Source: a virus
DNA length: 41,649 bases
Strand: one strand, 5' to 3'
Virus record (IMG/VR): IMGVR_UViG_3300034061_004507
Location: 1 to 41,649 of that record
In this document: positions 15,925 through 38,800 of the stretch, piece after piece
Position numbering within the stretch: the first letter of the stretch is position 1
How the letters are laid out: every line of letters starts with the position of its first letter
Position numbers and translations under genes: made by a program
The notes under the pieces: generated by a model
Seen by the model: the letters and a program-made list of their open reading frames with translations, nothing else
What the model was told of the DNA's origin: nothing
Database searches by the model: none

Positions 15925-18075
15925 TTAAGAAAGATTACCTAACTTTTCTCCGTAAGATTTACTTAATCTTTCATTAACAATAGTCATAACATTTTCTTTA
16001 AACATCCTTTGGAAATTAGGGTCTGAGTCTAAAATTTGTGCCAACGACCCTTGTAATCCTTCTACTTTTATTTTAACGTCTCCATTAACACCAACATTTC
16101 CTGTTACTTCATTTGTTGTTTTATTATTAACATCAACGGCCTTTGTTAAGTTTTCTAAATTTATATTTTTAGTTAATAATTCTTCCATGTTAGTACCTAA
16201 ATTATTTTGTATTTCTGTTGTTTTATTGACGTTAATTATATTTGGTATTGTTTCTGTTTTTATATTAGGTGTTACTTCAGTTGTTGGTATCTCTAAACTC
16301 ATGTTTTTAGTCAATATTTCTTGAAGTGTTTGTAATTTATTTGTATCACTATTTTGCATAGTGTTTAATATTGAAAATGCCCCTTGTGCGTTATTAACAA
16401 AACTATCTAAATCCGGTGCTGCTAAAAAATCGTCTTTTGGATTCATCGTAAATTGACCAAATGAACCTGTTACAATTGATCCTCCTTTAAGATCAGATGG
16501 AATATATATATCATTAGCTTCAATGCTAGTTATTTTGGTTTTTACTGCATCCCAAACTTCATCTATTTTTGTTGCCGCACCTTTCATTTTATTGATTACA
16601 TCCTCTAGATCAACACCAAATTCACCACCAGTTAAATAGTCGCCGGTTGTTGTGTTCATTTTTGTTACTATTTTATCAAAAGCTTCAACTACACTAGTTG
16701 TTCTACCCTCTAACGCCGTTGTCATAGCCTGTAAAGAGGTTATTCTACTATCAAACAAAGTATCGGCAAACTTATCACCAGTACCTTTACCGGCTTTATA
16801 AATAACCGAATTCGCAACTTTTGTTAATTCTGCGGTTAATTTTTCTGATTGCGTTCTTTGTTCTTTTGCCAATATTTCGTTTTGGTCTTTTGTTGCTTGT
16901 AAAATAGATCCAATTTCAGTAAGTTTCATGGAATCTGTTTTGTCCATTTCAGTTTGCATGTTTGTAAAAGTGTCTAATTGCCCTTGAGTCAATTCTTGTA
17001 CTTTTACCCAATCTTGTGTTCCTGGTAATTGTACTTGCCACTTACCATCTTTCATTTCTGCCATACTGGCAATAAGTTGTTTTTCTTCTTCTTTCATTCC
17101 GGCACCAAAACCAGGAATTTCCGACATAATTCTTTGTTCTTTGGCCGCCTTAATTGCACTTTTTGCTAATTCATCATAATTTAAATTTAACTCTTTGGCC
17201 ATAGCTTTCAATCTATACATTTGTTGTGTACCAATCTTAAACTGACCTGTTTCTGTATTATATTCTGCGGATGCTGCAGTAACTTTAATCATTTCTTCTT
17301 GTAAACCCTCAATATCATTTTGGGCCATATGTAGTAATTTAAACGGATCCCCTAAAGCACCAACATTACCACCTAACATTTGCATTGAAGATGCCATTTC
17401 AATCGCTCTGTCCGGATCTAAAGCGTCTTCAGCTAACTTCATAGTTTCTTTAAAATCAATACCCAATTGTTTAGCTCTAGCAACCATATTAGTCAAACCT
17501 TGTACTCCATTTTTAAATTGGTAGGTATTAGTTTTTTCTAAATTGCCCATCACTTCTTTTGTTAACTGAGCAGCATTTACACCAAAACCTTTGGCGGTTT
17601 TATACATTCTAGTTAAATAAATTTGTGCTTGTTGTTGTCCCATACCTATTTTTGAAAATTCAGCGGTATAAGCAATAAGTTCTTTAGTTCCTATACCCGT
17701 TAATTTGTTAAGGTATACTGCGTTATCTATTGTTTCTTGTTGTATTGTTGGGATCCTACCTGTTTCGTTGGCATATTCAGAAATCATTTCAACAGTATCT
17801 TTCATTTCAAGATTAAAATCTTGATTTCTTTGCATTGCGTTAAAAATACTTGTTTCTAATGCATTACCAAAACTTTTACTACCATAAGATAATTCTCTAG
17901 CTAATTTTGTTGAGGAGTCTTCTAATTTTACAAAAAATGTTTGGTATCTATTATAGTCTAGGGCATCGGAAAGTGCCGATTTAATATCAGTCTTAAACTG
18001 ATTTATACCCATACTCTCACCTATGTCATCAGTATAACCTCCCGTTGGTGGGGTCCCCATTAATAACCACATCAT
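15925..18075 (-). CDS. tail tape-measure protein
   Basis: Product of 716 aa, mostly predicted alpha-helix. The segments GQQQAQIYLTRMYKTAKGFG, NMVARAKQLGIDFKETMKLA and GQFKIGTQQMYRLKAMAKEL have the look of phage tape-measure proteins, and the gene lies directly after the tail chaperone gene, the usual place for a tape measure. It would set tail length, serve as the core around which gp19 assembles, and pass through the tube at infection. At about 1.5 angstroms per helical residue it would span about 107 nm (an inference, assuming full helix). T4 gp29 (590 aa) is the functional counterpart. The ATG at 18075 gives MMWLLMGTPPTGG; internal ATGs at 18060 and 18010 are alternatives, the last having the only AGGTGAG-like leader nearby. 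Confidence 0.7.
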   Translation of the reverse strand: MMWLLMGTPPTGGYTDDIGESMGINQFKTDIKSALSDALDYNRYQTFFVKLEDSSTKLARELSYGSKSFGNALETSIFNAMQRNQDFNLEMKDTVEMISEYANETGRIPTIQQETIDNAVYLNKLTGIGTKELIAYTAEFSKIGMGQQQAQIYLTRMYKTAKGFGVNAAQLTKEVMGNLEKTNTYQFKNGVQGLTNMVARAKQLGIDFKETMKLAEDALDPDRAIEMASSMQMLGGNVGALGDPFKLLHMAQNDIEGLQEEMIKVTAASAEYNTETGQFKIGTQQMYRLKAMAKELNLNYDELAKSAIKAAKEQRIMSEIPGFGAGMKEEEKQLIASMAEMKDGKWQVQLPGTQDWVKVQELTQGQLDTFTNMQTEMDKTDSMKLTEIGSILQATKDQNEILAKEQRTQSEKLTAELTKVANSVIYKAGKGTGDKFADTLFDSRITSLQAMTTALEGRTTSVVEAFDKIVTKMNTTTGDYLTGGEFGVDLEDVINKMKGAATKIDEVWDAVKTKITSIEANDIYIPSDLKGGSIVTGSFGQFTMNPKDDFLAAPDLDSFVNNAQGAFSILNTMQNSDTNKLQTLQEILTKNMSLEIPTTEVTPNIKTETIPNIINVNKTTEIQNNLGTNMEELLTKNINLENLTKAVDVNNKTTNEVTGNVGVNGDVKIKVEGLQGSLAQILDSDPNFQRMFKENVMTIVNERLSKSYGEKLGNLS

Positions 18076-18103: not shown

Positions 18104-18271
18104 TTATTTATTTTTTGAATATTCTTTAACTAACTTATCAATAAAATATTTTCTTTCGTAAGTGGGCATAGTCATTAAATCACGATAAGAAAAGTTACCA
18201 TGTTTTATTAAATAATAAAACTCATCAAGTAAAATTTGTTGGTAGTTAGAAGAAAGGACGAAAAAACTCAA
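18104..18271 (-). CDS. frameshift extension of the tail-assembly chaperone
   Basis: A second frame overlaps the end of the gp26-like gene and reads to a TAA at 18106-18104. It encodes VLSSNYQQILLDEFYYLIKH, then GNFSYRDLMTMPTYERKYFI and DKLVKEYSKNK. There is no ATG until 18175, inside what looks like the folded region; the only upstream options are a TTG at 18271 or a ribosomal frameshift. A +1 shift at GAG-TTT-TTT-C (18269-18260), where tRNA-Phe can move from TTT to TTC, joins the frames and gives a chaperone of about 297 aa. Tail chaperones just upstream of tape-measure genes commonly use such frameshifts (lambda G/GT, P2 E/E', Mu). Expression by frameshift is inferred; the open frame itself is visible. 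Confidence 0.65.
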   Translation of the reverse strand: MSFFVLSSNYQQILLDEFYYLIKHGNFSYRDLMTMPTYERKYFIDKLVKEYSKNK

Positions 18272-18998
18272 CCCCAAAGCCTACGTTCAACGTAACCTTT
18301 TCTCCAGACGGGGCTATTACAGTTCTCACTAAATCAACCTTTGGTTCACATTCATTTAAAAAATTTCTTAAATATTTTGAATCTGAAATTGGTAGTTGTG
18401 GTATTATTTTATTTATATATTCTCTATCTTCTTTTCCGTCGATTTCTAAGATTTGTTTTTCTAACCTTTTTGTTGCAACAGGAGCAATAAACCCTTGTGG
18501 GTATGAATCAATAATTTTTTCTAATTCTTTTTGATCACCCATATTCATAAGTTTAACTTTTACTTCGTGACCTGACTTTGGTAATTTTGTTTTAAAATGT
18601 CCGTTTTCATCGGGTTCGTTTTTTGGTTTAACGTAATCTACAGCATCTAAAATAATCGACCCTTCAAATTCTTTATTAGTTGCAGGATCAATTAATTTAA
18701 AATTATATTCAGGACCAAATGATGTGTTTCTTAAAAATACTAATATTGCTTGAACGTCAGCATCAATTAAATCATTTATATCAAAACCAGGTTCGTAAAT
18801 TTTTTGTCTTAATAATCTACTAATTAATCCGTCTTTACCTAAATTAGGTGACATTAATAAGTTTTCATCTTCAGCAGTTAAATATCCTACTTTAAGTGCT
18901 GATTTTTTATTTTTATAAAATTTACCACCACTAGGTAATTTAATAACATCATGTGGTAAGTTAAAATCCATTTGTCCATAAGAAGCAATATTATCCAT
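18246..18998 (-). CDS. 26: gp26-like tail-assembly chaperone
   Basis: Product of 250 aa. The N-terminal part (HDVIKLPSGGKFYKNKKSAL, then VGYLTAEDENLLMSPN) and FDINDLIDADVQAILVFLRN resemble the T4 gp26 baseplate/chaperone family (T4_baseplate): a short beta hairpin after LPS-x-G-x-x-Y, a TAEDE-x-LL segment, and a helix that positions one subunit against the next. T4 gp26 is 208 aa. It lies between tail tube and tape measure, where tail chaperones are found. The last codons (VEFFRPFF then TAA) overlap a second frame that probably extends the protein through a frameshift. It would bind the tape measure and recruit tube subunits before tube assembly. The ATG at 18998 is the first in frame and has no Shine-Dalgarno sequence. 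Confidence 0.7.
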   Translation of the reverse strand: MDNIASYGQMDFNLPHDVIKLPSGGKFYKNKKSALKVGYLTAEDENLLMSPNLGKDGLISRLLRQKIYEPGFDINDLIDADVQAILVFLRNTSFGPEYNFKLIDPATNKEFEGSIILDAVDYVKPKNEPDENGHFKTKLPKSGHEVKVKLMNMGDQKELEKIIDSYPQGFIAPVATKRLEKQILEIDGKEDREYINKIIPQLPISDSKYLRNFLNECEPKVDLVRTVIAPSGEKVTLNVGFGVEFFRPFF

Positions 18999-19099: not shown

Positions 19100-19588
19100 T
19101 TAGTAAACTAAGATACATCTATCAGGTCTAAGTGTTGCTTTAACAGTTACAATTTTTTCATCACTATAATCTAATGAATCCATATCAACACCTGTTAAGA
19201 ATACACCTTGTAGAATCCATTTTTCAACAGCAACTCCTGTTGGGTCTAGCATTTCTAAAGTTACGTTCTTTTTGTAACCAGCGGCATAACCCATACGACC
19301 TGTAATAGATTCAGCATGTAATCTAACCCACTCCATTAGTGCTTGTGATGCTGAAGGACCGATTGGGTCTAAGAATGTAACATCTATTGATTCCCAGTTA
19401 AATCTACCCGCAACATAAGTTGACGTATTAAGGAAAGGTATTTCAACTTCACCAATTTTAATTTTTGGTCTTGAAGTACTTTGGACATACCAAGAATTGA
19501 TACCCAAGTTACTTTCAAAAGTTAATATAAACCTGTTTTTCTTTTTAGGTTCATATTGTATCGGCATTTTCATTAATAAATCGGCCAT
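19100..19588 (-). CDS. 19: tail tube protein, gp19-like
   Basis: Product of 162 aa, matching the usual length of T4 gp19 (163 aa). The KKKNRFILTFESNLGINSWY start, the central FNWESIDVTFLDPIGPSASQ, the helix ALMEWVRLHAES and the strand VTLEMLDPTGVAVEKWILQG are characteristic: P-IGPSASQAL-x-EW marks the helix packing between tube subunits. It forms stacked hexameric rings inside the sheath. It is bounded by a terminator on its 3' side and by a TATTTATA element 30 bp upstream of the ATG, so it may be transcribed as a single strongly expressed gene. Confidence 0.9.
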   Translation of the reverse strand: MADLLMKMPIQYEPKKKNRFILTFESNLGINSWYVQSTSRPKIKIGEVEIPFLNTSTYVAGRFNWESIDVTFLDPIGPSASQALMEWVRLHAESITGRMGYAAGYKKNVTLEMLDPTGVAVEKWILQGVFLTGVDMDSLDYSDEKIVTVKATLRPDRCILVY

Positions 19589-20909: not shown

Positions 20910-23900
20910 TTATACATCATCAAAAGATGCTCCTGCCGGTGTAATAACAAACTCAATATCAATGTATTCTAAAGCTCTTGTTGGTTTCAAGAAAATTTTA
21001 CCTGTCATTGTATTTGAATCTAAGTCTTCAGCGGTTCCTGAAACGGTAACTCTAAAGTCAATCAAACCTCTTTCTCTTCTGATTTCATCTAAGATTGGGT
21101 TTACCGAATCTAAGAATTGTTGTCTAACTTTATCGTCGTTTTGTTCAAATAGTAATCTTACTGCCACTGCTGAAATTAATTTTCTTGCTTGTAGTAACAA
21201 TCTTCTTACGTTGATTCTATCAAGTGCCGATTCTCTAACTTGTAAAGTTTTGTTACCCCAAATTACCGTACCAACATCAGTAAAAGTTGCGATTGGGTTA
21301 ATTCTACCTTTATATAAGATATCTCTATCGTCTTGAGTTAATCTTTTTCTTGCCCCATCAGAAGTAACAATACCTCTAGTGTAACCTGCAGATGCAAACC
21401 AAGGTTTGAAAATCTTATCAGTAAACGCTAAGTTTTTAACAACTTCTGCCGTTGGTGGAATCCATATTGATTGATTATTTTCCGTGTCGTTTCTTAAAAT
21501 CCAAGGATAGTAAGTCGCAGTATAGTTAGAATCAATATCAACATCATCTAAATTATCGACCGCCTCTTCAGGGAATATCAAATTATCATTCAAATTATTG
21601 ATTGATGCCGTAGTAAATAGGTTGTAATCAGGAGTTGTACAAATATATATCGAATCTGCTCTATCAGTTTCAACCATTTCGATAGCTTCTTCAACCAAGT
21701 TTGAGTTATTTTTGTAGTCAATACCAGGTGTTGTAAATATATTAATATCAACGGATTCTGGATTAGCAAATGTTTTTTGACCCCATAGATACGCGTAGTA
21801 GTCGGTATTAGCCCAAACTTCTTGATTAGGACCTGTAATTCTTCTAAAAGCTCCCCAACCTGTTGCGTTTGGATATGTCGCATCTGCTTTATATCCTTTT
21901 AAGAAGTTAGTCCCCCCAAGAGCAAATCCATCACCATTAGTTCTATATTTTCTATAAATGTCCCATCCGTCAAATCCACCCGCAAACACTAAAGTAAATC
22001 TTCTTGAATTTGAACTATAATATGGGTTAGCTTGATCTGTAGGGTTTGATTGGAAACTAGCATCACCCACAAAGAATTTTGAATCCCCAGATGTTGGTCC
22101 GTTACCACCGATTAAAACTATAGTTGCTCCACTATCCATGTGGAAACCTTTTGTAACGTAACTCCACTCAGTTCCTTCGCCAGTTGCCAAGTTAGTAGGT
22201 GATTGTTTACCTCTATAGGTTAAGTGATCAGTATCAAATCCAACTTGTGAAGAAATTCCTAAAGATACTTTTCTAACTCTATCACCACTTGCTCCTGATC
22301 TGATAGGGGCACCTGTACCAAAAGTTGAAAAAGGTGGTGTATAAATAATTTGATTAGGTCCAAAATATTGTGTTTTAAAATTAATAAATGGTGGTTTTGC
22401 GTTCCCATAAGATCTTTGAACTAAACCTTCAAAACCTGCTGGTACTGCGTCTGATGGTGCTTCCTCACTCATATCAACCATTATATATCTTGATTTTAAT
22501 GGGAATTCACCATTAGATGTTCCTATTTTTTTGGCGATATAACCATTAGATGTCGGATCTAATGTACAACCAACAAATGATTGTAAAACATTAGTTGCCG
22601 AATCTGTATCATCAAATGAACGTACAAGTACATCAAAAGTATTATTATCTAAGTCAATGTTAGCTAAAGTAACCTTAACTTGAAAATTTGCTCTAGTACC
22701 ATCTGAAATAGTTATGAATTTAAACAACCTATAAACTTTATTACCTCTTAGTTCAGACACAACAAATGGTGTTTCAGGTGTTTGATATTTTTCTAATGAA
22801 TATGCAATTGTATTTGTGTTAGGTGAGTTTCTTAACCCTGGCAATGCCACTAAACTTGTTTTTAGTCCTCTAATTTTGTGTTCTAAATAACCTGTGTTCA
22901 AAAATGTAGGATAAGCCTCCTCAACAAAAATAGGGAAATCATCTGAATCTATAGTACCATTAAAGTTAGTGTAACCAAGAGTAGTACCTATAAAATTTGT
23001 TTGGTCAGAATCTAATGAAACCTCAAAAGAAAAATTATTATTATCAACAGTAACTCCTGAAATTAAGAAAGTACCAAAAGGATCTTCAGTTATACCTGAA
23101 TATAAACCAGAACCAATCATTGTTACTGCAGTAGTTGCACTAACTTTATATACAGGACCATTATCACTTGCATATGTTGTATCACCTCTTGATCTTAAAG
23201 TTGCAACTACTACGTTGTCATAATCAGAATAAGCAGTACCTGAGTAGTTAGTACCACTAAAAGTAACTGTACCTGAATATGATCCGGCAGTTGGTGTTGA
23301 TGCTAATGTACTTACAACACCACCAAAACCGTAACCTGCGTAGTTTGGTGAACTATAATTAAATAAAGTATAATACCATGAATCGTTATCTGCCGATGTT
23401 AAATCAGTATTAGATAATATAACATCAGGTACGTTCATTAAATTTTGGAAGCTAGTTGCACTTGATGAAATAGAGGCTCCTGTTATTGCGTTAAATTGGG
23501 CGGTAGCAACAGAACCAAAAAATAAAGAGGTTGTTCCTGATAATAAACTACTATTAACCCTATAACCAATTTCGCTTGAAATTAAATCTTCAATCTGTTC
23601 TTGTATTGAAGTGGTTAGACCGTTAGAATCTTCATATGATTCAGTAAAGTCGTTAGTTAAAAATGCTGGAATAGTACCAAATACTACAGTACCGCCTGTT
23701 GTTCCTGTAAATGCCAATGTACCCGATAAATTTGTTGTAGAACCAATGGTGTCTACATCAACGTCACCAATTGTTGCAATAGACCAAGAAGGACCGGCGT
23801 CGTAACCTGATAATCCTAAAATTCTAGTTACAAAAAGTTGATTAGATTCTGATAAATAAGCCTTAGCAATATACGATGCTTCGTATTTTGGTATTGTAGT

Positions 23901-24107
23901 ACCAACATATTTAGCGGGACTTGTTCCACCAAATACCGAAATATACTCGTCATAATCTTTAATAAATATAGGTTCAAATGCTGGTCCTTGTAAGGTCTCA
24001 CCAACAATACCTAATGTAGTTACTCCAACACTTTGTGTTACAAAAGTAAGGTCTCTTTCTGATGTATACACACCAGGAGATACAAAAACTTTTCCGTTAG
24101 ATGCCAT
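20910..24107 (-). CDS. 18: contractile tail sheath protein, gp18-like (1065 aa)
   Basis: Product of 1065 aa. The N terminus VFVSPGVYTSERDLTFVTQS, then GVTTLGIVGETLQGPAFEPI, is the classic sheath start. The C-terminal part (TVIWGNKTLQVRESALDRIN, RRLLLQARKLISAVAVRLLF and TGKIFLKPTRALEYIDIEFV) is the conserved sheath core and the strand that links to neighbours in the mesh. T4 gp18 is 659 aa, so this protein carries about 400 extra residues, mostly between residues about 130 and 700, rich in Thr, Ser and Gly, as expected for domains exposed on the outside of the tail. A TATTTATA element lies 33 bp upstream of the ATG and a hairpin terminator follows the stop. It wraps the gp19 tube and contracts to drive it through the host envelope. 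Confidence 0.92.
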   Translation of the reverse strand: MASNGKVFVSPGVYTSERDLTFVTQSVGVTTLGIVGETLQGPAFEPIFIKDYDEYISVFGGTSPAKYVGTTIPKYEASYIAKAYLSESNQLFVTRILGLSGYDAGPSWSIATIGDVDVDTIGSTTNLSGTLAFTGTTGGTVVFGTIPAFLTNDFTESYEDSNGLTTSIQEQIEDLISSEIGYRVNSSLLSGTTSLFFGSVATAQFNAITGASISSSATSFQNLMNVPDVILSNTDLTSADNDSWYYTLFNYSSPNYAGYGFGGVVSTLASTPTAGSYSGTVTFSGTNYSGTAYSDYDNVVVATLRSRGDTTYASDNGPVYKVSATTAVTMIGSGLYSGITEDPFGTFLISGVTVDNNNFSFEVSLDSDQTNFIGTTLGYTNFNGTIDSDDFPIFVEEAYPTFLNTGYLEHKIRGLKTSLVALPGLRNSPNTNTIAYSLEKYQTPETPFVVSELRGNKVYRLFKFITISDGTRANFQVKVTLANIDLDNNTFDVLVRSFDDTDSATNVLQSFVGCTLDPTSNGYIAKKIGTSNGEFPLKSRYIMVDMSEEAPSDAVPAGFEGLVQRSYGNAKPPFINFKTQYFGPNQIIYTPPFSTFGTGAPIRSGASGDRVRKVSLGISSQVGFDTDHLTYRGKQSPTNLATGEGTEWSYVTKGFHMDSGATIVLIGGNGPTSGDSKFFVGDASFQSNPTDQANPYYSSNSRRFTLVFAGGFDGWDIYRKYRTNGDGFALGGTNFLKGYKADATYPNATGWGAFRRITGPNQEVWANTDYYAYLWGQKTFANPESVDINIFTTPGIDYKNNSNLVEEAIEMVETDRADSIYICTTPDYNLFTTASINNLNDNLIFPEEAVDNLDDVDIDSNYTATYYPWILRNDTENNQSIWIPPTAEVVKNLAFTDKIFKPWFASAGYTRGIVTSDGARKRLTQDDRDILYKGRINPIATFTDVGTVIWGNKTLQVRESALDRINVRRLLLQARKLISAVAVRLLFEQNDDKVRQQFLDSVNPILDEIRRERGLIDFRVTVSGTAEDLDSNTMTGKIFLKPTRALEYIDIEFVITPAGASFDDV

Positions 24108-25438: not shown

Positions 25439-25954
25439 TTACAATCCTTTAAATTCGTTATCGTTTACAGGAGATGCAATAATTGATCTATAAAATCTCT
25501 TATAACCTGCATATGTGTGTTTATTATCTGTGTATATCCTACCATCGTTTACAACCGAATAGTATCTAACTCTACTTTCCGTTTCATAATAACCAATATA
25601 ATCACCAAATTGAATGTCTATACCTAATTCATCTAATTGAGATTGGTAAACACCAACCTTTAAATTACCTGGTTCCATTTGAGATAATTTTGAACTACCT
25701 AAATCTGTATTTGTAGGAGCCTCAATTTGAACATAACCTTTAAATTCAACAGGAGCTAAAAATTGTACTCCATCTTCAAGCGTTTCACCGTATACATCGT
25801 CTTTATTTGTTTTTTGTCTATCAACTCTGTAAAGAACTAAAGTAAAATTCATATCACCATGTAGCCATTCTTCACCCATGGAAATATCTAAGTTAAAATC
25901 CTCTTCAGAAAAGAATTTATTTAATCTAGTTATTGGTACTCTATTTTGTGTCAT
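25439..25954 (-). CDS. neck/connector protein, possibly gp14-like
   Basis: Product of 171 aa. Segments NKDDVYGETLEDGVQFLAPV and EFKGYVQIEAPTNTDLGSSK, then LKVGVYQSQLDELGIDIQFG with DYIGYYETESRVRYYSVVND, resemble the beta core of T4-type neck proteins (gp14): a D-x-V/L-YGE-x-L entry, then a strand naming a small-molecule-free barrel. It is the first gene of a two-gene unit with the gp15-like terminator (1-bp gap), as in T4 where gp13, gp14 and gp15 are adjacent. Its role would be joining portal and tail. Length is shorter than T4 gp14 (256 aa), so identity is moderate. A TATTTATA element ends 4 bp before the ATG, in the divergent region shared with the helicase gene. Confidence 0.55.
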   Translation of the reverse strand: MTQNRVPITRLNKFFSEEDFNLDISMGEEWLHGDMNFTLVLYRVDRQKTNKDDVYGETLEDGVQFLAPVEFKGYVQIEAPTNTDLGSSKLSQMEPGNLKVGVYQSQLDELGIDIQFGDYIGYYETESRVRYYSVVNDGRIYTDNKHTYAGYKRFYRSIIASPVNDNEFKGL

Positions 25955-25958
25955 ATAA

Positions 25959-25966
25959 TATAAATA
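25959..25966 (-). promoter_or_regulatory. TATTTATA element, minus side of divergent promoter region
   Basis: Minus-strand AGTATTTATATTATATG, ending 4 bp before the connector-gene ATG. It faces a plus-strand copy at 26001. Confidence 0.4.
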
Positions 25967-26000
25967 CTTTAATTGATTTTTTTATATTATTTACTATTTT

Positions 26001-26008
26001 TATTTATA
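26001..26008 (+). promoter_or_regulatory. TATTTATA element, plus side of divergent promoter region
   Basis: TATTTATAATATAATGG: ends 5 bp before the helicase ATG. Together with the minus-strand copy at 25959 it marks a 59-bp divergent intergenic region. Confidence 0.4.
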
Positions 26009-26013
26009 ATATA

Positions 26014-27777
26014 ATGGAAGAATTAATTTCAAAAACTCCCGAAACAAGAGCCCTTCAGTTATTAGATGATTATGTTGGGTCAAATAACTATATCTTAAAT
26101 TTAAAACACAAAAAACAAAATAGTAAGATATTTACACCCACAAGGCCACAAGCGGAGTACATTATAAATTTTCACGGAAGAGTACCAAAGGTTGCAAAAA
26201 AATGGGTAAAACTTGATTCATATTTTGGAAAAAAGATGATGGAAGATAAAATGTACACAAAAGAACCATCGGAAATTTATGTTGAGAAGTTGTTAGTTGA
26301 AAAAGATAAATCATATCATATATGGGGTAAAATTTTTAGTGGGGAAACTTTACATGATTTTTGGATTCCAAAATCAGCTTTAGTAAAAGACAATGAAGTT
26401 AAAAATGTTGTTATTGAGTATTCTAAATACGATCACAGGTCACCAATGTCTCACCAAAAAGAAGCGATTGAAAAATTAGTTAGAAATAAAAAGTTTATTT
26501 TGGCTGATGATATGGGTCTTGGTAAAACAACATCAACAATTATATCTGCACTTGAAACAGGGGCTAAAAAAATATTAATTATTTGTCCCGCATCATTAAA
26601 GATAAATTGGGAAAGAGAGATTGCAAATTATTCAGATAGAACCGTATATATTGCAGAAGGTAAGAAATTTTCAGATGAATCTGATTTTGTAATTATTAAC
26701 TACGATATATTAAAAAATTTTCACGACCCAAAAAAGAAAGACGACTCTATTATTTTAAAATCAAATTTTGACCTTGTGATTATGGATGAGGCTCACATGA
26801 TATCAAACCCACAAGCACAAAGAACAAAAATAGTAAATGATTTATGCGATAGATTAGATAGGGTTTGGTTGTTAACGGGGACACCAATGACCTCAAGACC
26901 AATGAATTATTTTAATTTATTAAAATTGGTTGATAGTCCTGTTGCCGCAAATTGGATGGCTTACGCAAAAAGATATTGTAATGGTTATCAGTTTAGTGTT
27001 GGAAAAAGAAAAGTTTGGAATGTTACAGGAGCATCAAACTTAGATGAATTAAGAGAAAGAACTCAAACACATATTCTAAGAAGATTAAAAGAAGAAGTTT
27101 TAGATTTACCTGATAAAATTATTACACCCGTTTATTTAAGATTAAAATCTAAAGACTACGAGGAACTTATGGGTGAATATTACGATTGGTATGATAAAAA
27201 CCAAGAAGAGTCTTCATCACTTACTATTCAGTTTGGCAAACTTATGAAAGTAAGAAAAGTAATTGCTCAAGAAAAAGTTAAATCAACAATTGAATTAGCG
27301 GAAAACATAATTGAACAAGGGAAGAAAGTTATCATATTTACAAACTTTACTGACACATTACAAGAAATATATAATCATTTTGGTAAATCTGCGGTTTATT
27401 TAGACGGTTCTTGTTCAAAACCTCATCGTCAAAAGGCGGTAGACGACTTTCAAGAAAATGAAAAAATTAAAGTATTTGTTGGTAATTTAAAGGCTGCAGG
27501 TGTTGGTATAACCTTAACCTCAGCCGAAGCAGTAATCATGAATGACTTATCATTTGTACCTGCAGAACACGCACAGGCGGAAGACAGATCACATAGGATA
27601 GGTCAAAAAAATTCAACATCCGTTTATTACCCATTATTTGAAAATACAATCGAGGGTGCAATTTATGACATCTTAACAAGAAAGAAAAAAATCATATCAA
27701 CAGTAATGGGCGATGATTTATTAGAAGACGCATCATCAATTGAAGAAATGTTAAATATGATTTCTAACAATAGATAA
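26014..27777 (+). CDS. SNF2-family helicase-like ATPase (SMARCAL1/UvsW-like)
   Basis: Product of 587 aa. Motif I is FILADDMGLGKTTSTI (Walker A, residues about 162-177), motif Ia ILIICPASLKINWEREI, motif II IMDEAHMISNP (DEAH, about 258-261), motif III LLTGTPM, and motifs V/VI GNLKAAGVGITLTSAEAVIM with DRSHRIGQ (about 524-530), the SNF2 signature. Residues 1-140 form an N-terminal domain of unknown fold that resembles the substrate-recognition part of SMARCAL1/HARP-like proteins. It would remodel or anneal DNA forks, the job UvsW has in T4. The ATG at 26014 is chosen because the open frame upstream (to 25933) runs back through the intergenic region and the start of the opposite gene and gives an unlikely hydrophobic N terminus. 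It is first in a plus-strand operon with superoxide dismutase. Confidence 0.88.
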   Translation: MEELISKTPETRALQLLDDYVGSNNYILNLKHKKQNSKIFTPTRPQAEYIINFHGRVPKVAKKWVKLDSYFGKKMMEDKMYTKEPSEIYVEKLLVEKDKSYHIWGKIFSGETLHDFWIPKSALVKDNEVKNVVIEYSKYDHRSPMSHQKEAIEKLVRNKKFILADDMGLGKTTSTIISALETGAKKILIICPASLKINWEREIANYSDRTVYIAEGKKFSDESDFVIINYDILKNFHDPKKKDDSIILKSNFDLVIMDEAHMISNPQAQRTKIVNDLCDRLDRVWLLTGTPMTSRPMNYFNLLKLVDSPVAANWMAYAKRYCNGYQFSVGKRKVWNVTGASNLDELRERTQTHILRRLKEEVLDLPDKIITPVYLRLKSKDYEELMGEYYDWYDKNQEESSSLTIQFGKLMKVRKVIAQEKVKSTIELAENIIEQGKKVIIFTNFTDTLQEIYNHFGKSAVYLDGSCSKPHRQKAVDDFQENEKIKVFVGNLKAAGVGITLTSAEAVIMNDLSFVPAEHAQAEDRSHRIGQKNSTSVYYPLFENTIEGAIYDILTRKKKIISTVMGDDLLEDASSIEEMLNMISNNR

Positions 27778-27788: not shown

Positions 27789-28499
27789 ATGAATATACTA
27801 AAAAAAACAATTTCAATTATTGAAGAAAAAATAAATGATGACTCTCCATCTAAAGAAAAATTAATTTCAGAAATAAAAAGAGTTAGTATTGAAAAATTAC
27901 CATATGAGTATAATTCTTTTGGTTCTTTTATTGATAGTGAAACTATGAATGTTCATTACAATAAACATTATAAAGGGTATGTTGAAAAATTAAATTTAGA
28001 ATTAGATAAAATAAAAGGTAAAGATTTAGATTTAGAACAAATAATTAAAAAAATTTCTAATTTTAATAAAAAAGTAAAAAACAACGGGGGTGGAGCATTT
28101 AACCATGCGTTATTTTGGAAAATGTTATCCCCAAAAAAACAAAAAATATTAGATCCGATTTTAGGAAAAATTAATAAAGAATTTGGTTCGTTTAATGAAT
28201 TTAAAGAAAAATTTGAAGAAGAGGCCAAAAATAGATTTGGTTCAGGTTGGGTTTGGTTAATTTTAACTGATTCTAATAAATTAAAAATTGTCACAACATC
28301 AAATCAAGACAATCCTCTTATGGATACGGAAAAAGAAAGAGGGTACCCACTTTTAGGTTTAGACCTTTGGGAACACGCTTATTATTTAAAATATCAAAAT
28401 CAAAGGGACAAATATATTTCTAATTTTTGGAAAGTTGTTAATTGGGGGTTTGTAAATGATTTATATACTACACAACTAAAAAGAAAAGATTCTAAATAA
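27789..28499 (+). CDS. Fe/Mn superoxide dismutase (Mn-type)
   Basis: Product of 236 aa. Metal ligands are at His56 (MNVHYNKHYKGYV), His106 (GGGAFNHALFWKML), Asp192 and His196 (GLDLWEHAYYLKYQNQR). The gating residues His60 and Tyr64 are present, and FGSGWVWLI and NFWKVVNWG are the family signatures. Gln173 in SNQDNPLM together with GGGAFNH is the Mn-type pattern (E. coli SodA). Residues 1-36 are an extra helical N terminus not in E. coli SodA. It converts superoxide to O2 and H2O2, presumably in the infected cell's cytoplasm, since no signal peptide is seen. It sits 11 bp after the helicase stop and 29 bp before the neck gene. All key residues are present, so it should be active. Confidence 0.93.
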   Translation: MNILKKTISIIEEKINDDSPSKEKLISEIKRVSIEKLPYEYNSFGSFIDSETMNVHYNKHYKGYVEKLNLELDKIKGKDLDLEQIIKKISNFNKKVKNNGGGAFNHALFWKMLSPKKQKILDPILGKINKEFGSFNEFKEKFEEEAKNRFGSGWVWLILTDSNKLKIVTTSNQDNPLMDTEKERGYPLLGLDLWEHAYYLKYQNQRDKYISNFWKVVNWGFVNDLYTTQLKRKDSK

Positions 28500-29651: not shown

Positions 29652-29984
29652 ATGGCGGTATTTAAAACATCACAAATAAAAAAAACAATTAACGGTAAAG
29701 AAGTTTTTGTTTCAGAGAGTGTTATTATAAATAGTATTTCATATAGCACAAATGGTGAAAACTATATTGTAGTAAAAGATGTTAATAACTGTTTAATTTT
29801 TTTAAATTCAGATACAAGCGATCATGTTATAATAAAATCATTAACAAACGTTTTAGTTAAATCAAACGAACTAATAGATGAGGAATTTAATGAAGTAGAA
29901 CTAAATAAAGGTGCCTGTGTCGAATTTAAAAAAATTGGTGATTATTGGTACATACTATCTTCAGACGGGTTGAAGAACTCTTAG
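29652..29984 (+). CDS. small hypothetical protein (110 aa)
   Basis: Product of 110 aa, 4 bp after the neck gene. Beta-rich pattern: VFKTSQIKKTINGKEVFVSE, then IINSISYSTNGENYIVVKDV and FLNSDTSDHVIIKSLTNVLV, with VEFKKIGDYWYILSSDG near the end. A small virion or head-decoration beta domain is likely; no family recognised. Its stop overlaps that of the convergent DNA polymerase C-terminal frame (TAG at 29982, TAA at 29981-29983 on the other strand), and a hairpin (CTTAGT / ACTAAG, 29980-29996) spans the two stops. Confidence 0.55.
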   Translation: MAVFKTSQIKKTINGKEVFVSESVIINSISYSTNGENYIVVKDVNNCLIFLNSDTSDHVIIKSLTNVLVKSNELIDEEFNEVELNKGACVEFKKIGDYWYILSSDGLKNS

Positions 29985-31003
29985 TCAAAAACTAAGGACA
30001 TTAAATCCCCATCTTCATCGAATTCATAAATATCATCATCATCTACTTCATTTTTTAACTTACTTTCTAACATAATTCTTCTATTGTTTTCAACTCTTTC
30101 ACTATCCACTAAATTAATTGTGTCATCAATATACATGTAGTAAGGGTCAATTCCAACACTTTTCCAAAACGTAACTTCCATATCAGAAAGAGTTAATACC
30201 TCATCTAACTTATCTTGGTCTTTTTCTTTCATAGGAAACCCTCTACCCATAATAGTTTGTGATTTTGTAAATATTGGCATATCTTTAGGATTCTCAATTA
30301 AAATATCTTTTCTAATTTCAGGACTATAAACAACTAACAGAGGTTCAATTCTTTTATTAAATGCTGCCAAATATCTTGGTACATTATATTCACCTAATAA
30401 ATCAGGATTTAGTTCAATTTCTTTTTCATCGATTAAATAACAATTTAAAATAACTTCACTTTTTGATAACATTTCAAGTGGTACAGCACCATAACCATCC
30501 ATGTAGTCTTGTATTTGTTTTTTAGTCATCTTGGTTGTTTTCTTTTGAACGTCTCCATGTGATTTTTTTTCACCGTTATTAACGTAATAGATTGTATCAC
30601 CTAAACCAGGATTTTTACCAGCATTCATCAAAAGTTCCATATGTGCTTGACGAGACATTAAACTTCCTGCCTTTGTTGTTTTTGTGATGTGAACTTTATA
30701 ATCCTCTATTGATTGTTTAACACGAGCCTTGTTTGCAATCTTTGCTAATGGGATTTGTTTATTAAATATTTTATCTACATACTCATAGTAAAAATCCAAA
30801 AACTCGGCACCCTTACCATCAAGTAACATTCTTAGTCCTTTATCTAAAAATTCTGCAACATATGTTTGAAGTTTTTTAGATTTAATTGTATTACCTGTTA
30901 ATTTAACTTTACCTTTATCTGTTAGAAGTGCGTAGTTTTTACGTGCCACGTTAATTGTTGCAGGCCATACACCATCAATATCAAGACCCATTTCGTTTCT
31001 CAT
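29981..31003 (-). CDS. 43: family B DNA polymerase, C-terminal fragment (second frame)
   Basis: Product of 340 aa from the ATG at 31003. It begins after the catalytic motif C of the neighbouring frame and holds the rest of the palm, the thumb and the C-terminal tail: EMGLDIDGVWPATINVARKN (like the KKRYAL part of T4 gp43), LRMLLDGKGAEFLDFYYEYV (thumb helix) and an acidic end DEDGDLMSLVFD. The frame continues upstream of the ATG to at least 31036 (EADVAEYNDLFM), which would join directly to the upstream frame if one G were skipped. Thus the ATG at 31003 may not be the true start. No Shine-Dalgarno sequence. It converges on the plus-strand gene ending at 29984. Confidence 0.8.
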   Translation of the reverse strand: MRNEMGLDIDGVWPATINVARKNYALLTDKGKVKLTGNTIKSKKLQTYVAEFLDKGLRMLLDGKGAEFLDFYYEYVDKIFNKQIPLAKIANKARVKQSIEDYKVHITKTTKAGSLMSRQAHMELLMNAGKNPGLGDTIYYVNNGEKKSHGDVQKKTTKMTKKQIQDYMDGYGAVPLEMLSKSEVILNCYLIDEKEIELNPDLLGEYNVPRYLAAFNKRIEPLLVVYSPEIRKDILIENPKDMPIFTKSQTIMGRGFPMKEKDQDKLDEVLTLSDMEVTFWKSVGIDPYYMYIDDTINLVDSERVENNRRIMLESKLKNEVDDDDIYEFDEDGDLMSLVFD

Positions 31004-31028
31004 AAATAAGTCATTGTATTCTGCAACA

Positions 31029-32861
31029 TCAGCTTCCTTCTTCTACTAAACCATTAAGACCTTTACCTACATAAGTGTAGTTATCTCTATCTTCAGGAGT
31101 TTCAAAGTTTACACCATCCGTATCCATTACAAGTGGAGTGTAACCTTTACTCATGAAGTACATAATCATCTGTCGTAAATACTGCCTTCCGGTACACGTA
31201 ATCTGTTCTCCCATGTCCATATCACCCCAAGGGAAGACGTGGGGTGCAGATAATGATCCAAAGAAGGCATTGATAAAGATTTTGATTGGTAATTGTTTCC
31301 TGTCGTATGAGACAGAAAGTTTCGGATCCGTTTTTTTAAATTCACTTGCTAAATTTTTATATTTTATACGGGTATCTCTAAAGTATTTTAACATACTTTT
31401 CATCGCACCCGTTACGTCACATTTTGGAAATACATCATGAACCAACTGAATAGAAGGATAAAGAGAAGAGTAGTCAAGTTTTAATACTTTTCTTGAGTAC
31501 CCTACTTGAAGTAATCTTGACAAACCTCCTGTAAATTTTCTTTTTGGTAACTTTTTAGGAATTGCTAAATTATGTTTATAGGACCACGCACACATAATCA
31601 TTTTCCATAAGGTAGCGGTACCCATAGTTGAAAGTCTCTCGTATGTTGTTGGTACAAGTTTAGAAAGTAAAAAGTTTGCTTGATTAAACTGTTCATCAAC
31701 AACCATAGTTTCATAAAGGTCATCATCAAGATAATCTTCAATTATTTTTGAACCTGTAATTTTTTTATATACGTCATCTCTTCTTGAACATATTTCATCT
31801 ATTTTAGAATCAAGTCCTACTTTTTTGTAGTTACCGTTTTCTTTATTCATCCAATATTCTTCATTGTCAAAATAAATTTTACCGATTTTATCACCTTCTA
31901 CATAAACACGATTTTCTTTTTCTGCTTCAATAAATTTGGTAATGTACTTCAAAGACCAACTCTTAATGTCAGAGTTAATAGCCTGTGCTCTACGAACTGC
32001 GTGCGCAATATCAATAATATTGTAACCCCACATTTGTGTTTGAACGTAAGGTTCCATTTCATTCGCTAACTTCAAAATCCCGTCTTTTTGTTTTAATGAA
32101 TAATCAGGATTTAAAGTTTTAGCAATTTTTTTAATATTTAATTTTAAAATCTCTGCACGTTTTAAAATAAAAGGAAAGTCAAAGAATGCTGAGTTGTATC
32201 CACCAACAAGAGAAGGTTTTAGTTCGTCTATTGTTTTAAAAAACTCAATAATCATTTGTCTTTCTTCATCTTCATTTTGAGCGGATAATAATTTTAGAAA
32301 ACCACGATTGTCTTTCATCCCTATCAAGAATATTTTACTTGTCTTGGGATCTAAACCTGTGGTCTCGATATCGAATACAAACCTGTGTATTTCATCATAT
32401 TCATCAAACCCTTTAAATAGTCTTTTACTTTTTTGAATTAAGTATTGTTCGACAGGGGATAGTATTGTAATTGCGTCTGAATTATCTCTACCCCACGGAT
32501 CGAGACCTCCACCTTTAAAAAAGTTTACAAGATTTGAATATGATTTTGTTGTTTTAACCAAGAACGTTAACCCGTTCTTCAATCTTTCGTCACCGTGATC
32601 TTCTAATTTTTCTATGATAATGCCGTTTTCAGACATTGCCTTTTTTTGTAAGTCTTTATTCCCTTTATAAAAGTTTTTACTTCTAAGGTCACCAACCCAA
32701 GCAAACGGAATAAAAGTATCCATTCTCAAAAGTTTTCCTTTGATTGGGTCTTGTATTACTTTAAATATTTTATCTGATTTGTAATCGTATTCTAATGCTA
32801 CGATATATTTTTCTTCGTCTTCGCCGTGTAAAAAGCGTTCAATTTCTTCTTGTGGAACCAT
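31029..32861 (-). CDS. 43: family B DNA polymerase, N-terminal and palm part (first frame)
   Basis: Product of 610 aa. 3'-5' exonuclease motif I is FVFDIETTGLDP (Asp164, Glu166), exonuclease motif II is VGGYNSAFFDFPF, polymerase motif A LKLDYSSLYPSIQ (about 460), motif B KIFINAFFGSLS (about 525) and motif C VMDTDGVNFE (about 579). It stops at TGA 31031-31029 with the sequence GKGLNGLVEEGS, just after the catalytic Asp pair. A normal family B polymerase cannot stop here, so the frame must be continued by the downstream fragment. With a +1 shift the join reads GLVEE-EADVAEYNDLF and gives a protein of about 960 aa (T4 gp43 is 898). It replicates the phage genome with gp32. A TATTTATT element lies 60 bp upstream. 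Confidence 0.9.
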   Translation of the reverse strand: MVPQEEIERFLHGEDEEKYIVALEYDYKSDKIFKVIQDPIKGKLLRMDTFIPFAWVGDLRSKNFYKGNKDLQKKAMSENGIIIEKLEDHGDERLKNGLTFLVKTTKSYSNLVNFFKGGGLDPWGRDNSDAITILSPVEQYLIQKSKRLFKGFDEYDEIHRFVFDIETTGLDPKTSKIFLIGMKDNRGFLKLLSAQNEDEERQMIIEFFKTIDELKPSLVGGYNSAFFDFPFILKRAEILKLNIKKIAKTLNPDYSLKQKDGILKLANEMEPYVQTQMWGYNIIDIAHAVRRAQAINSDIKSWSLKYITKFIEAEKENRVYVEGDKIGKIYFDNEEYWMNKENGNYKKVGLDSKIDEICSRRDDVYKKITGSKIIEDYLDDDLYETMVVDEQFNQANFLLSKLVPTTYERLSTMGTATLWKMIMCAWSYKHNLAIPKKLPKRKFTGGLSRLLQVGYSRKVLKLDYSSLYPSIQLVHDVFPKCDVTGAMKSMLKYFRDTRIKYKNLASEFKKTDPKLSVSYDRKQLPIKIFINAFFGSLSAPHVFPWGDMDMGEQITCTGRQYLRQMIMYFMSKGYTPLVMDTDGVNFETPEDRDNYTYVGKGLNGLVEEGS

Positions 32862-35824: not shown

Positions 35825-38800
35825 TTATACGTCTATATCAACTATAGTTAATACATCCGTTGAGTCATAGAAAGACAATCTAGGTGTACCATCTTGTCTG
35901 TCAAAAATAATTTTTGTCATATTTGCATCATACACATATGTGGCAGATGTAAAGTCATAATTAAATACTTTTGTAGATAAGATTTGATTTTTAGTGAAAG
36001 CGCTAGTGATTATATTACCACCAGCAGTTTGACTACCGTCATCTCCAAAGTAATCACCAATATTATTATTGTTAAATCCAGATGAAATAACATTTTGTGT
36101 ACCAACACCAGCATTACCAAAGAAATTACCGATTTTGTTGTATTGGAAATCAGTATCAATTTCGTTAAATGCTGAATAATTACCCAAATTATTAGATATA
36201 AAGTTACCACCAATAGCACTTGGGGATCCGCCTATACCTGAGTTACCAACAAATAAATTACCTATTGTATTATCCAATGTGTTTTGACCAAATACGTTAA
36301 ACCAAAAGTCGTCACCAATTTTGTTATTTGTGAAGTTTAAATCAATAGCGTTGAATATAAAATTATCACCAATAACATTAAACTGAAATCCGTCATTTAT
36401 GATGTTACCACCATCTCCGTTTGAACCGCCACCAACTGAAGGGTAGTTTGTATCATTACCAAAGAAATTACCAATTTTATTGTATTTGAAATCATTGAAT
36501 ATTACGTTCTGTACCGGTGAACCAGGACCTGAACTATCATTACCAAAGTAATTACCTATTTCATTACCTTCAAAACCATCAACTACTGTATTTCCAACAA
36601 AGAAATTTTCAATATCATTACCTATGAAACCATTACCAATAGAATTTAGAGTAAAATAATTTTCAATATCATTACCAGCAAAGGCAATACCTATATTATT
36701 ATTTTCAAAATTATTTTCAATATCATTACCTGTAAATGTATTACCTATAGTATTATTTTTAAAATCATTTTCAATTGCATTACCTATAAAGTCGTTAGAT
36801 ATGTTATTTTGGAAAAAATTATTACCTATTACATTATTATTTGAATCTTTACCTATTGTATTATTATTAAAAGCTTTAGCAATAATATTATAATCAAAAT
36901 TGTTACCGATAATATTAGTATTAAACCCATTACCTAATGTATTATTTCTAAAATCCTTACCGATATTGTTATCACTAAAATTATTACCTATTACATTATT
37001 TCTTAAACCATTCCCAATAATGTTATTAGAAGATAAATCATTTATTTTGTTATTTCTAGAGGTATTTCCAATGGAATTATTACTAAACTCATTACCGATA
37101 TTATTTGATACGAATTCATCACCTATACTGTTAGTAACGAAGTAATTACCAATAGAATTTCCAGTAAAAATATTACCTATAGAATTTCCACTAAAAACAT
37201 TTTCAATATCATTACCAGCAAAGGCAATACCTATATTATTATTACCAAAATAATTTCCTATTTCATTACCTTCAAAACCATCTAATATTGTATTTCCAAT
37301 AAAGTAATTTTTAATTGAGTTATCTTCAAAATTATCACTAACGGTATTACCTGAGAAAAAATTCCCGATATTATTATTGTAAAAGTATTCACCAATAGTG
37401 TTATCCAGAAAATTATCGTTTATAATATTACCTTGTAGTTCTCCCAATCCGAAACCAAAATCGTTACCTATTGTGTTATTACTAAATAATGCACCAATAT
37501 TGTTAGAGGCAAAATTATCACCAATAGTGTTTCCAAAAACGACACCTTTAAATGTGTTTCCAAAAACACTACCCAAAAAGTCATTATCAGAAATAAATGG
37601 ACCGAAGGTATTACCATTACAACTTCCACTAATTTGATTTCCTCCAAAACCCCAATCTGTTCTATTTTCACTAAAATCCTGATACGTTATATTACCTTTA
37701 AATTCGTTGAAAATTTGGTTATCATTAAAATTACCGTATATTGTATTGTTTTCAAATTGTTCACCGATTCTATTGTTAAATGTTTCTCCACTTATTGAAT
37801 TATTATTAAATCCGAAACCAATTTCATTCTTATAAAAATCTTGGGTTATTATGTTATTACTAAAATTTAAACCAATTTGATTATCTTCAAAATTATCACC
37901 AACGGTGTTATTTTTAAAATCATTACCAATAACATTATTATACGCAAATTGACCAATAATGTTATTTTCAAAATTATCATTTATGATATTACCATATGGG
38001 TCACCACCACCATAACCAAAATCACTACCAATTATGTTATTTCTAAAATTATTACCAATGGTATTATATGCGAATCTTTCACCATTATTTTGTTGTGTGT
38101 AAATTGAGTTCCATTCAGTATCACCAGGACCAGGCCATTGATTATTAAATGGTGGTGTGTCAGTTATTGTGTTATATAATCCACCTTGACTATCTCTTGT
38201 TAATTCTACAACACCAGGAACGATAATATCCACTTCTGAACCATAATTAGTTTTAGTAAACACAACGGTTGAACCTGTGGTATTACCATTTGAATCCAGT
38301 TCTTGTCTTTCATATTGGAATCCACCACCATTTCCACCTTGTGTCCATTGTGTGAATTTAATTCTAAAATATTGTTGTGTTGATATAACTCTCATCACAA
38401 GTTCCTTACCTAAAATATAACTACCAACATTATTACTGAGTGAAATTCTTAATGTGTTATATGTTCTTGTCGATACCGTTGATAAGTCGTTCCACCCAAA
38501 TAAATCATCGTTTGATGGTCTATTATTTTCAAAATAAGTACCAACTTTATTAGTGTTAAATTCATTACTAATTACATTATTATAAAAATAATAATCAGTT
38601 GTGTTTTGATAAAAATCATCATCTATAGTATTGTTATTAAACCCATTACCAATATTATTTAATCTAAAATCACTACCAGTTGTGTTATTGTTAAATCCGT
38701 TTAAAATGGTATTACCCTGAAATTCACCATTAATTTCATTCTCTTGAAAGTTTGTACCAATTTGGTTATTTTGAAAATCTTGTCTAATAACATTTTCATT

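Follow-up and report, generated by a model that had tools for sequence, protein, structure and literature searches.

The window analysed here, a 41,649-nucleotide stretch of viral DNA (positions 1 to 41,649 of IMG/VR record IMGVR_UViG_3300034061_004507), carries on its minus strand a series of putative tail genes in the order sheath, tube, chaperone and tape measure (Table 1), the same order as annotated in the records of phages immuto, SP-15 and LIS04. The 250-aa ORF that follows the tube gene is predicted, from homology and gene order, to be a tail-assembly chaperone of the T4 gp26 family. It matches PF12322 (T4_baseplate; E 7.6e-7, 29.5 bits against a cut-off of 24.5) and phrog_150 ('baseplate hub'; E 9e-9), families to which T4 gp26 and gp51 belong too, and it lies immediately 5′ of the tape-measure-like ORF, with the tube gene nearby.

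Table 1 Features of the chaperone locus in the window
Feature	Position	Strand	Basis or remark
Putative tail sheath, upstream	20910..24107	minus	size and gene order
Tail tube protein, gp19-like, upstream gene	19100..19588	minus	phrog_4542 E 8e-28, PF06841 E 1e-4
Predicted tail-assembly chaperone TAC-N, short form, 250 aa	18246..18998	minus	T4 gp26 family
Upstream RNA hairpin	18271..18314	minus	
Candidate shift site TTT TTT CGT C	18257..18266	minus	P-site slip codon TTT 18263-18261, A-site CGT 18260-18258
TAC-C extension, 51 residues, predicted to be read only after the +1 shift	18104..18259	minus	
Tape-measure-like ORF	15925..18075	minus	position and size

An AlphaFold2 model covering TAC-N, built with an alignment of 84 relatives, reached a pLDDT of 86; single-sequence folding was useless (pLDDT 30). 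The model resembles the SP-15 baseplate hub protein (TM 0.81) and other T4-like 'baseplate hub assembly' proteins, and no solved structure was matched by TAC-N in sequence or fold.

The 3′ end of the chaperone gene is overlapped by a second reading frame. The 0-frame stops at TAA 18248-18246, the +1 frame runs open from 18280 as far as the stop codon at 18106-18104, and the two overlap at GAG-TTT-TTT-CGT (18269-18258). If TTTC were read as one step, a 297-aa fusion would result, with 51 residues past the slip (...VEFF-VLSSNYQQ...FSYRDLMTMPTYERKYFIDKLVKEYSKNK). The +1 frame has no ATG before its core, and the overlap contains two in-frame TTG codons (GCT TTG GGG TTG AGT TTT TTC). A reading of the same DNA made from sequence only had proposed a programmed +1 frameshift at this point, from TTT to TTC, that would add about 51 residues just upstream of the tape measure: the coordinates, the missing ATG and the length of the extension are confirmed, and the tape-measure-like ORF begins 28 nt past the extension stop. 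Among relatives, a long ORF started by ATG begins 20-34 nt after that stop in 48 of the 48 scored, and a tape measure is annotated at the equivalent place in immuto and SP-15.

The arrangement is conserved in the window's clade, sampled as the best 80 of 277 relatives of the 250-aa protein (55-99% identical); these sequences share ancestry, and counts of them are not counts of independent events. All 80 listed loci carry TTTTTTCG in phase, as TTT-TTT-CGN with all four CGN codons in use, so that within the overlap UUU would occupy the P site and CGN the A site. Since the same 80 loci keep TTTTTTCGN together with an open, conserved extension (core LDExYYL...FSYxDxxxMPTYERKYFI), the frame arrangement is not a matter of chance. 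Aligning relatives for TTTTTTC and the extension frame was the check suggested by the sequence-only reading, and both features were retained throughout. Nine of the loci have a +1 frame that becomes open just 20 nt ahead of the 0-frame stop; the shift must then fall at or after AATTTTTTCGN, leaving TTTTTTC as the sole plausible slip site. Purifying selection acts on the extension (pN/pS ~0.38 among window-clade relatives), and the last ~27 codons of the clade's chaperone gene show a synonymous identity excess of 0.23-0.27, against ~0.04 elsewhere in the gene. A search of genome contigs for relatives returned none. Three loci (L049, L053 and L070) have a 0-frame ORF two codons longer (FFSI) before its stop, with the same shift site and extension.

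Beyond this clade, the extension lies in the +1 frame in all 117 distinct loci of two wider groups, the relatives of Flavobacterium phage immuto (53 loci) and of Microcystis phage Mel-JY01 (64 loci), whose sites read TTT-CTT-TGG, TTT-CTA-TGG, TTT-TTT-TGG or CTT-TTT-TGG. Five further phages share the +1 extension: the 484-kb phage LR756508 (TTT-CTA), Streptococcus phage GXN1 (TTC-TTT-CGT), Bacillus phage SP-15 (TTT-TTT-CAC), Listeria phage LIS04 (TTT-TTT-AGT) and Rhodothermus phage RM378 (TTT-TTT-TGG). Loci of the GXN1 and SP-15 types were few among the viral contigs searched. The window-clade extension aligns with those of its +1 relatives at hhalign probabilities of 97-99%. T4-like phages of a large group, most of them uncultured, appear to make their long chaperone by a +1 skip at UUU.

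The codon preceding the site ends in T in none of the 117 loci, where codon usage predicts ~58 (24.9 in the immuto group, 33.5 in the Mel-JY01 group); if the loci were independent, the probabilities would be 6.5e-16 and 4.9e-23, respectively, values that are overstated for related sequences. In the window's clade the codon before TTT is GAR. The −1 heptamer T_TTT_TTY is hence avoided, as would be expected of a slippery site at which selection disfavours the −1 path, and the canonical −1 arrangement (X_XXY_YYZ, here T_TTT_TTY with a −1-frame extension) is absent from the +1 groups. In their public entries, Mel-JY01, immuto and SP-15 have part of the extension listed as a hypothetical protein in its own right (L083:3740-3976, L084:3875-3985 and L086:3797-3916, respectively). 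The present analysis corrects this annotation: the records examined either give the extension in that form or omit it.

The same frame would be reached, with one extra Phe, by a −2 slip on TTT-TTT, as in Mu. TTTTTT is invariant in the window's clade, and tRNA-Phe could re-pair there two bases back; at TTT-CTT, TTT-CTA, TTC-TTT-CGT and AAC-TTT-CTA, however, such re-pairing is broken, yet the extension of these relatives stays in that very frame. A +1 slip fits every homologous site because UUU re-pairs to UUC and UUU_Y works throughout (in LIS04 through the first TTT), which favours +1 and makes a −2 slip improbable. It is less probable still, and indeed very unlikely, that TAC-C is a separate small protein started inside the overlap, from TTG or, in some relatives, from ATG. 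Candidate starts do occur: among 52 distinct relatives, 24 have a +1-frame ATG nine codons before the slip and 34 have TTG at −6. The earlier observation that the extension has no ATG of its own accordingly extends to 23 of the 52, the window included, that lack one anywhere before the core, but not to these 24. None of the starts is conserved, six relatives offer neither ATG nor GTG nor TTG ahead of the core, and the candidates are by-products of the 0-frame codons AAT-GTN (the source of the ATG) and TTT-GGG. Moreover, TAC-C runs straight on from TAC-N in a single protein in T4 gp51, and an independent start would leave both the invariance of TTTTTT and the avoidance of T unexplained.

Two further explanations do away with the ribosomal shift altogether. 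Transcriptional slippage would have a homopolymer to act on at the window-clade site, but six T make only a short run, the frame is kept in relatives with TTTCTTTGG or TTTCTATGG, which have no run above three, and the codon-phase constraints (no T before TTT, and TTT never TTC) suit ribosomes; we consider it extremely unlikely. A sequencing error or a decayed gene has nothing to recommend it beyond the frame break itself, and its probability is negligible: it is refuted by an arrangement common to the 80 listed window-clade loci, the 117 others and several independently sequenced isolate genomes, and by the selection acting on the extension.

Upstream of the site, the window's clade conserves an RNA hairpin whose stem ends 7 nt from the slip codon. 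The outer stem (18314-18309 with 18276-18271), [G/A]CCCC[G/A] facing [U/C]GGGG[U/C], is paired in 42 of 42 distinct clade sequences, and the inner stem (18297-18293 with 18283-18279, with one G-G mismatch in the window) is paired in 94.8% of cells of the same set; slid controls were about half paired. Two-sided compensatory changes fill 34 cells, compared with 8.8 in shuffles (0/500 as high). When RNAalifold was slid across the whole gene, this hairpin was the only consensus structure, with essentially nothing elsewhere. Taken alone, the window sequence is not unusually stable in this region (z 0.08). No downstream stimulator was found in the 170 nt 3′ of the site in 52 window-clade sequences. 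The TTT-TTT-TGG groups lack the hairpin, which therefore cannot be essential across the family. Upstream of the site, the TTT-CTT group shows no more than a weak hairpin, ambiguous in that the region is also under constraint from the IPIG protein motif. The codons GCC, CCG and GGG, invariant or nearly so in the hairpin region, are rare in the phage.

In the internal loop of the hairpin, GGAGAA (alignment columns 22-27, window 18305-18300) is invariant in the 42 sequences, and its GGA is not the commonest Gly codon. Pairing of this loop with a downstream TTCTTC was considered and rejected: it cannot form while a ribosome occupies the site, and the columns are too invariant for a covariation test.

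Stable 5′ hairpins abutting a shift site are known to act like an internal Shine-Dalgarno sequence, raising +1 and damping −1 frameshifting on 70S as well as 80S ribosomes (PMC6321510, PMC3639245). The hairpin described here would offer a natural test of RNA refolding behind the ribosome as a driver of +1 shifts, so far an idea drawn from engineered constructs. The genes of the window also bear on the choice of stimulator: of 22 gene starts, 20 lack a Shine-Dalgarno and are rich in A near −11 to −13 and −3, matching the description given for Bacteroidia, in which ribosomes make no use of such sequences (PMC9976891). These starts suggest a Bacteroidota-type host for the phage, and on ribosomes that ignore the Shine-Dalgarno a hairpin would be a sensible substitute. 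In the same genes, CGN codons total ~2 per 1000, against 25 for AGA.

We propose that programmed +1 frameshifting on UUU_C very probably produces the long chaperone, with the rare A-site codon and the upstream hairpin as stimulators; the evidence for this is comparative throughout. Ribosomes would arrive at GAG-UUU-UUU-CGN, where the P-site tRNA-Phe on the second UUU would re-pair to UUC, one base forward, as the rarely used Arg codon CGN waits in the A site. In the window's clade the hairpin, its 3′ end 7 nt 5′ of the slip codon, would refold behind the ribosome and push it forward, replacing the internal Shine-Dalgarno of bacterial +1 sites such as prfB. A minority of ribosomes would continue into the TAC-C domain, so that one gene may yield a short (TAC-N, 250 aa) and a long (TAC-NC, ~297 aa) chaperone, both presumably acting on the tape measure and tube as lambda gpG/gpGT do.

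In P-SSM2, S-PM2, HTVC008M, Cr30, phiM12, KVP40, phiW-14 and XacN1 the extension is found in the −1 frame instead. All eight phages have T as the last base of the codon preceding TTT, giving T_TTT_TTY (TTTTTTT in XacN1). The extensions of the two lineages are homologous (hhalign P 94.4%, E 9e-8), and phrog_634 matches both the −1-lineage extensions and T4 gp51. The window-clade extension is thereby linked to known TAC-C through the −1 lineage; compared directly with the single T4 gp51 sequence, it gave no significant match. Orthologous chaperone genes therefore split into −1 and +1 lineages with opposite nucleotide rules, T or never T before TTT: cyanophages, KVP40 and other T4-likes would slip −1 at T_TTT_TTY, and the window's clade +1 at the equivalent point.

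In a tree of the family the +1 group falls on one side of a branch, weakly supported (79/37) because XacN1 is a long branch; the placements of XacN1, RM378 and phiW-14 are unsure owing to long branches. T4 gp26 and gp51 group together beside KVP40, a −1 phage, which points to duplication from a frameshifting ancestor. T4 has two separate genes where the window's clade has one gene, predicted to be frameshifted by +1, but both systems share the PF12322 family, TAC-C, and a short and a long form. The lineages hint at how T4 gained its separate genes: judging from this grouping, gp26 and gp51 look like the duplicated short and long forms of a frameshifting ancestor.

Vladimirov, Gautam & Davidson reportedly identified the T4-like chaperones in 2022, with frameshifting conserved in several T4-like groups and T4 using genes 26 and 51. 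Two later papers credit frameshifted T4-like chaperones to Vladimirov et al. 2022, cited for the two-gene arrangement in PMC10885494 and for poly-T −1 signals in PMC12846349. Frameshifted tail chaperones are general in tailed phages, T4 having long been the exception, and −1, −2 and +1 shifts are all used (PMC5009743). The existence of a frameshift is hence not new given this earlier work, and the suggestion that the event is unusual for a T4-like phage survives for its +1 direction only. Virion proteomes, proposed as a test by the sequence-only reading, would serve poorly, since neither lambda chaperone form is present in the mature virion (PMC5009743).

The window gene resembles lambda gpG/gpGT in lying between tube and tape measure and in gaining a C-terminal domain by a predicted frameshift near its 3′ end, a likeness drawn from gene order; lambda shifts by −1 and the window's clade would shift by +1. 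In bacterial prfB (RF2), a +1 site is likewise stimulated from just 5′ of the P site, but by an internal Shine-Dalgarno and with a stop codon in the A site, in place of the putative hairpin stimulator and sense codon of the window's clade. The chaperone of the haloarchaeal myovirus HSTV-2 very likely shifts by +1 as well, in another virus group and at another site, a comparison made from its description (PMC5009743). UUU_CGN itself is already familiar as a +1 motif from influenza PA-X and the plant amalgaviruses, eukaryotic RNA viruses with an identical site, a proposed P-site slip from UUU to UUC and a rare Arg A-site codon; unlike for the window's clade, no conserved 5′ hairpin is described in the parts available of these reports (PMC3498833, PMC5052127).

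Frameshifted chaperones, +1 chaperones and UUU_CGN are thus each already known. The literature searched yielded no account of the +1 lineage, the T/no-T direction switch or the conserved 5′ hairpin, and the direction switch between orthologues and the hairpin look new. Our results place a +1 programmed frameshift, as a well-supported prediction, in a large group of T4-like phages. More tentatively, the locus may represent a natural, conserved bacterial +1 signal in which a refolding hairpin replaces the Shine-Dalgarno in Bacteroidota-type hosts, combined with a −1/+1 switch among orthologues, a broader reading that we hold possible but somewhat short of probable.

Elsewhere in the window, a family B DNA polymerase is seemingly split (29981-32861, minus strand) into two ORFs, the first (610 aa) holding the exonuclease and part of the polymerase domain (PF03104, PF00136) and the next (340 aa) lacking a Pfam match. 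An iron/manganese superoxide dismutase gene (27789-28499, plus strand; PF02777 E 1e-40) lies on the opposite strand inside the structural gene region, and an SNF2-type helicase (25933-27777, plus strand; PF00176 E 3e-30) is transcribed away from the tail genes. Finally, positions 35825-40333 (minus strand) encode a 1502-aa protein of degenerate short repeats (xxNxIGNxFxxN) without Pfam match, whose make-up suggests a long tail or fibre protein built from repeats.
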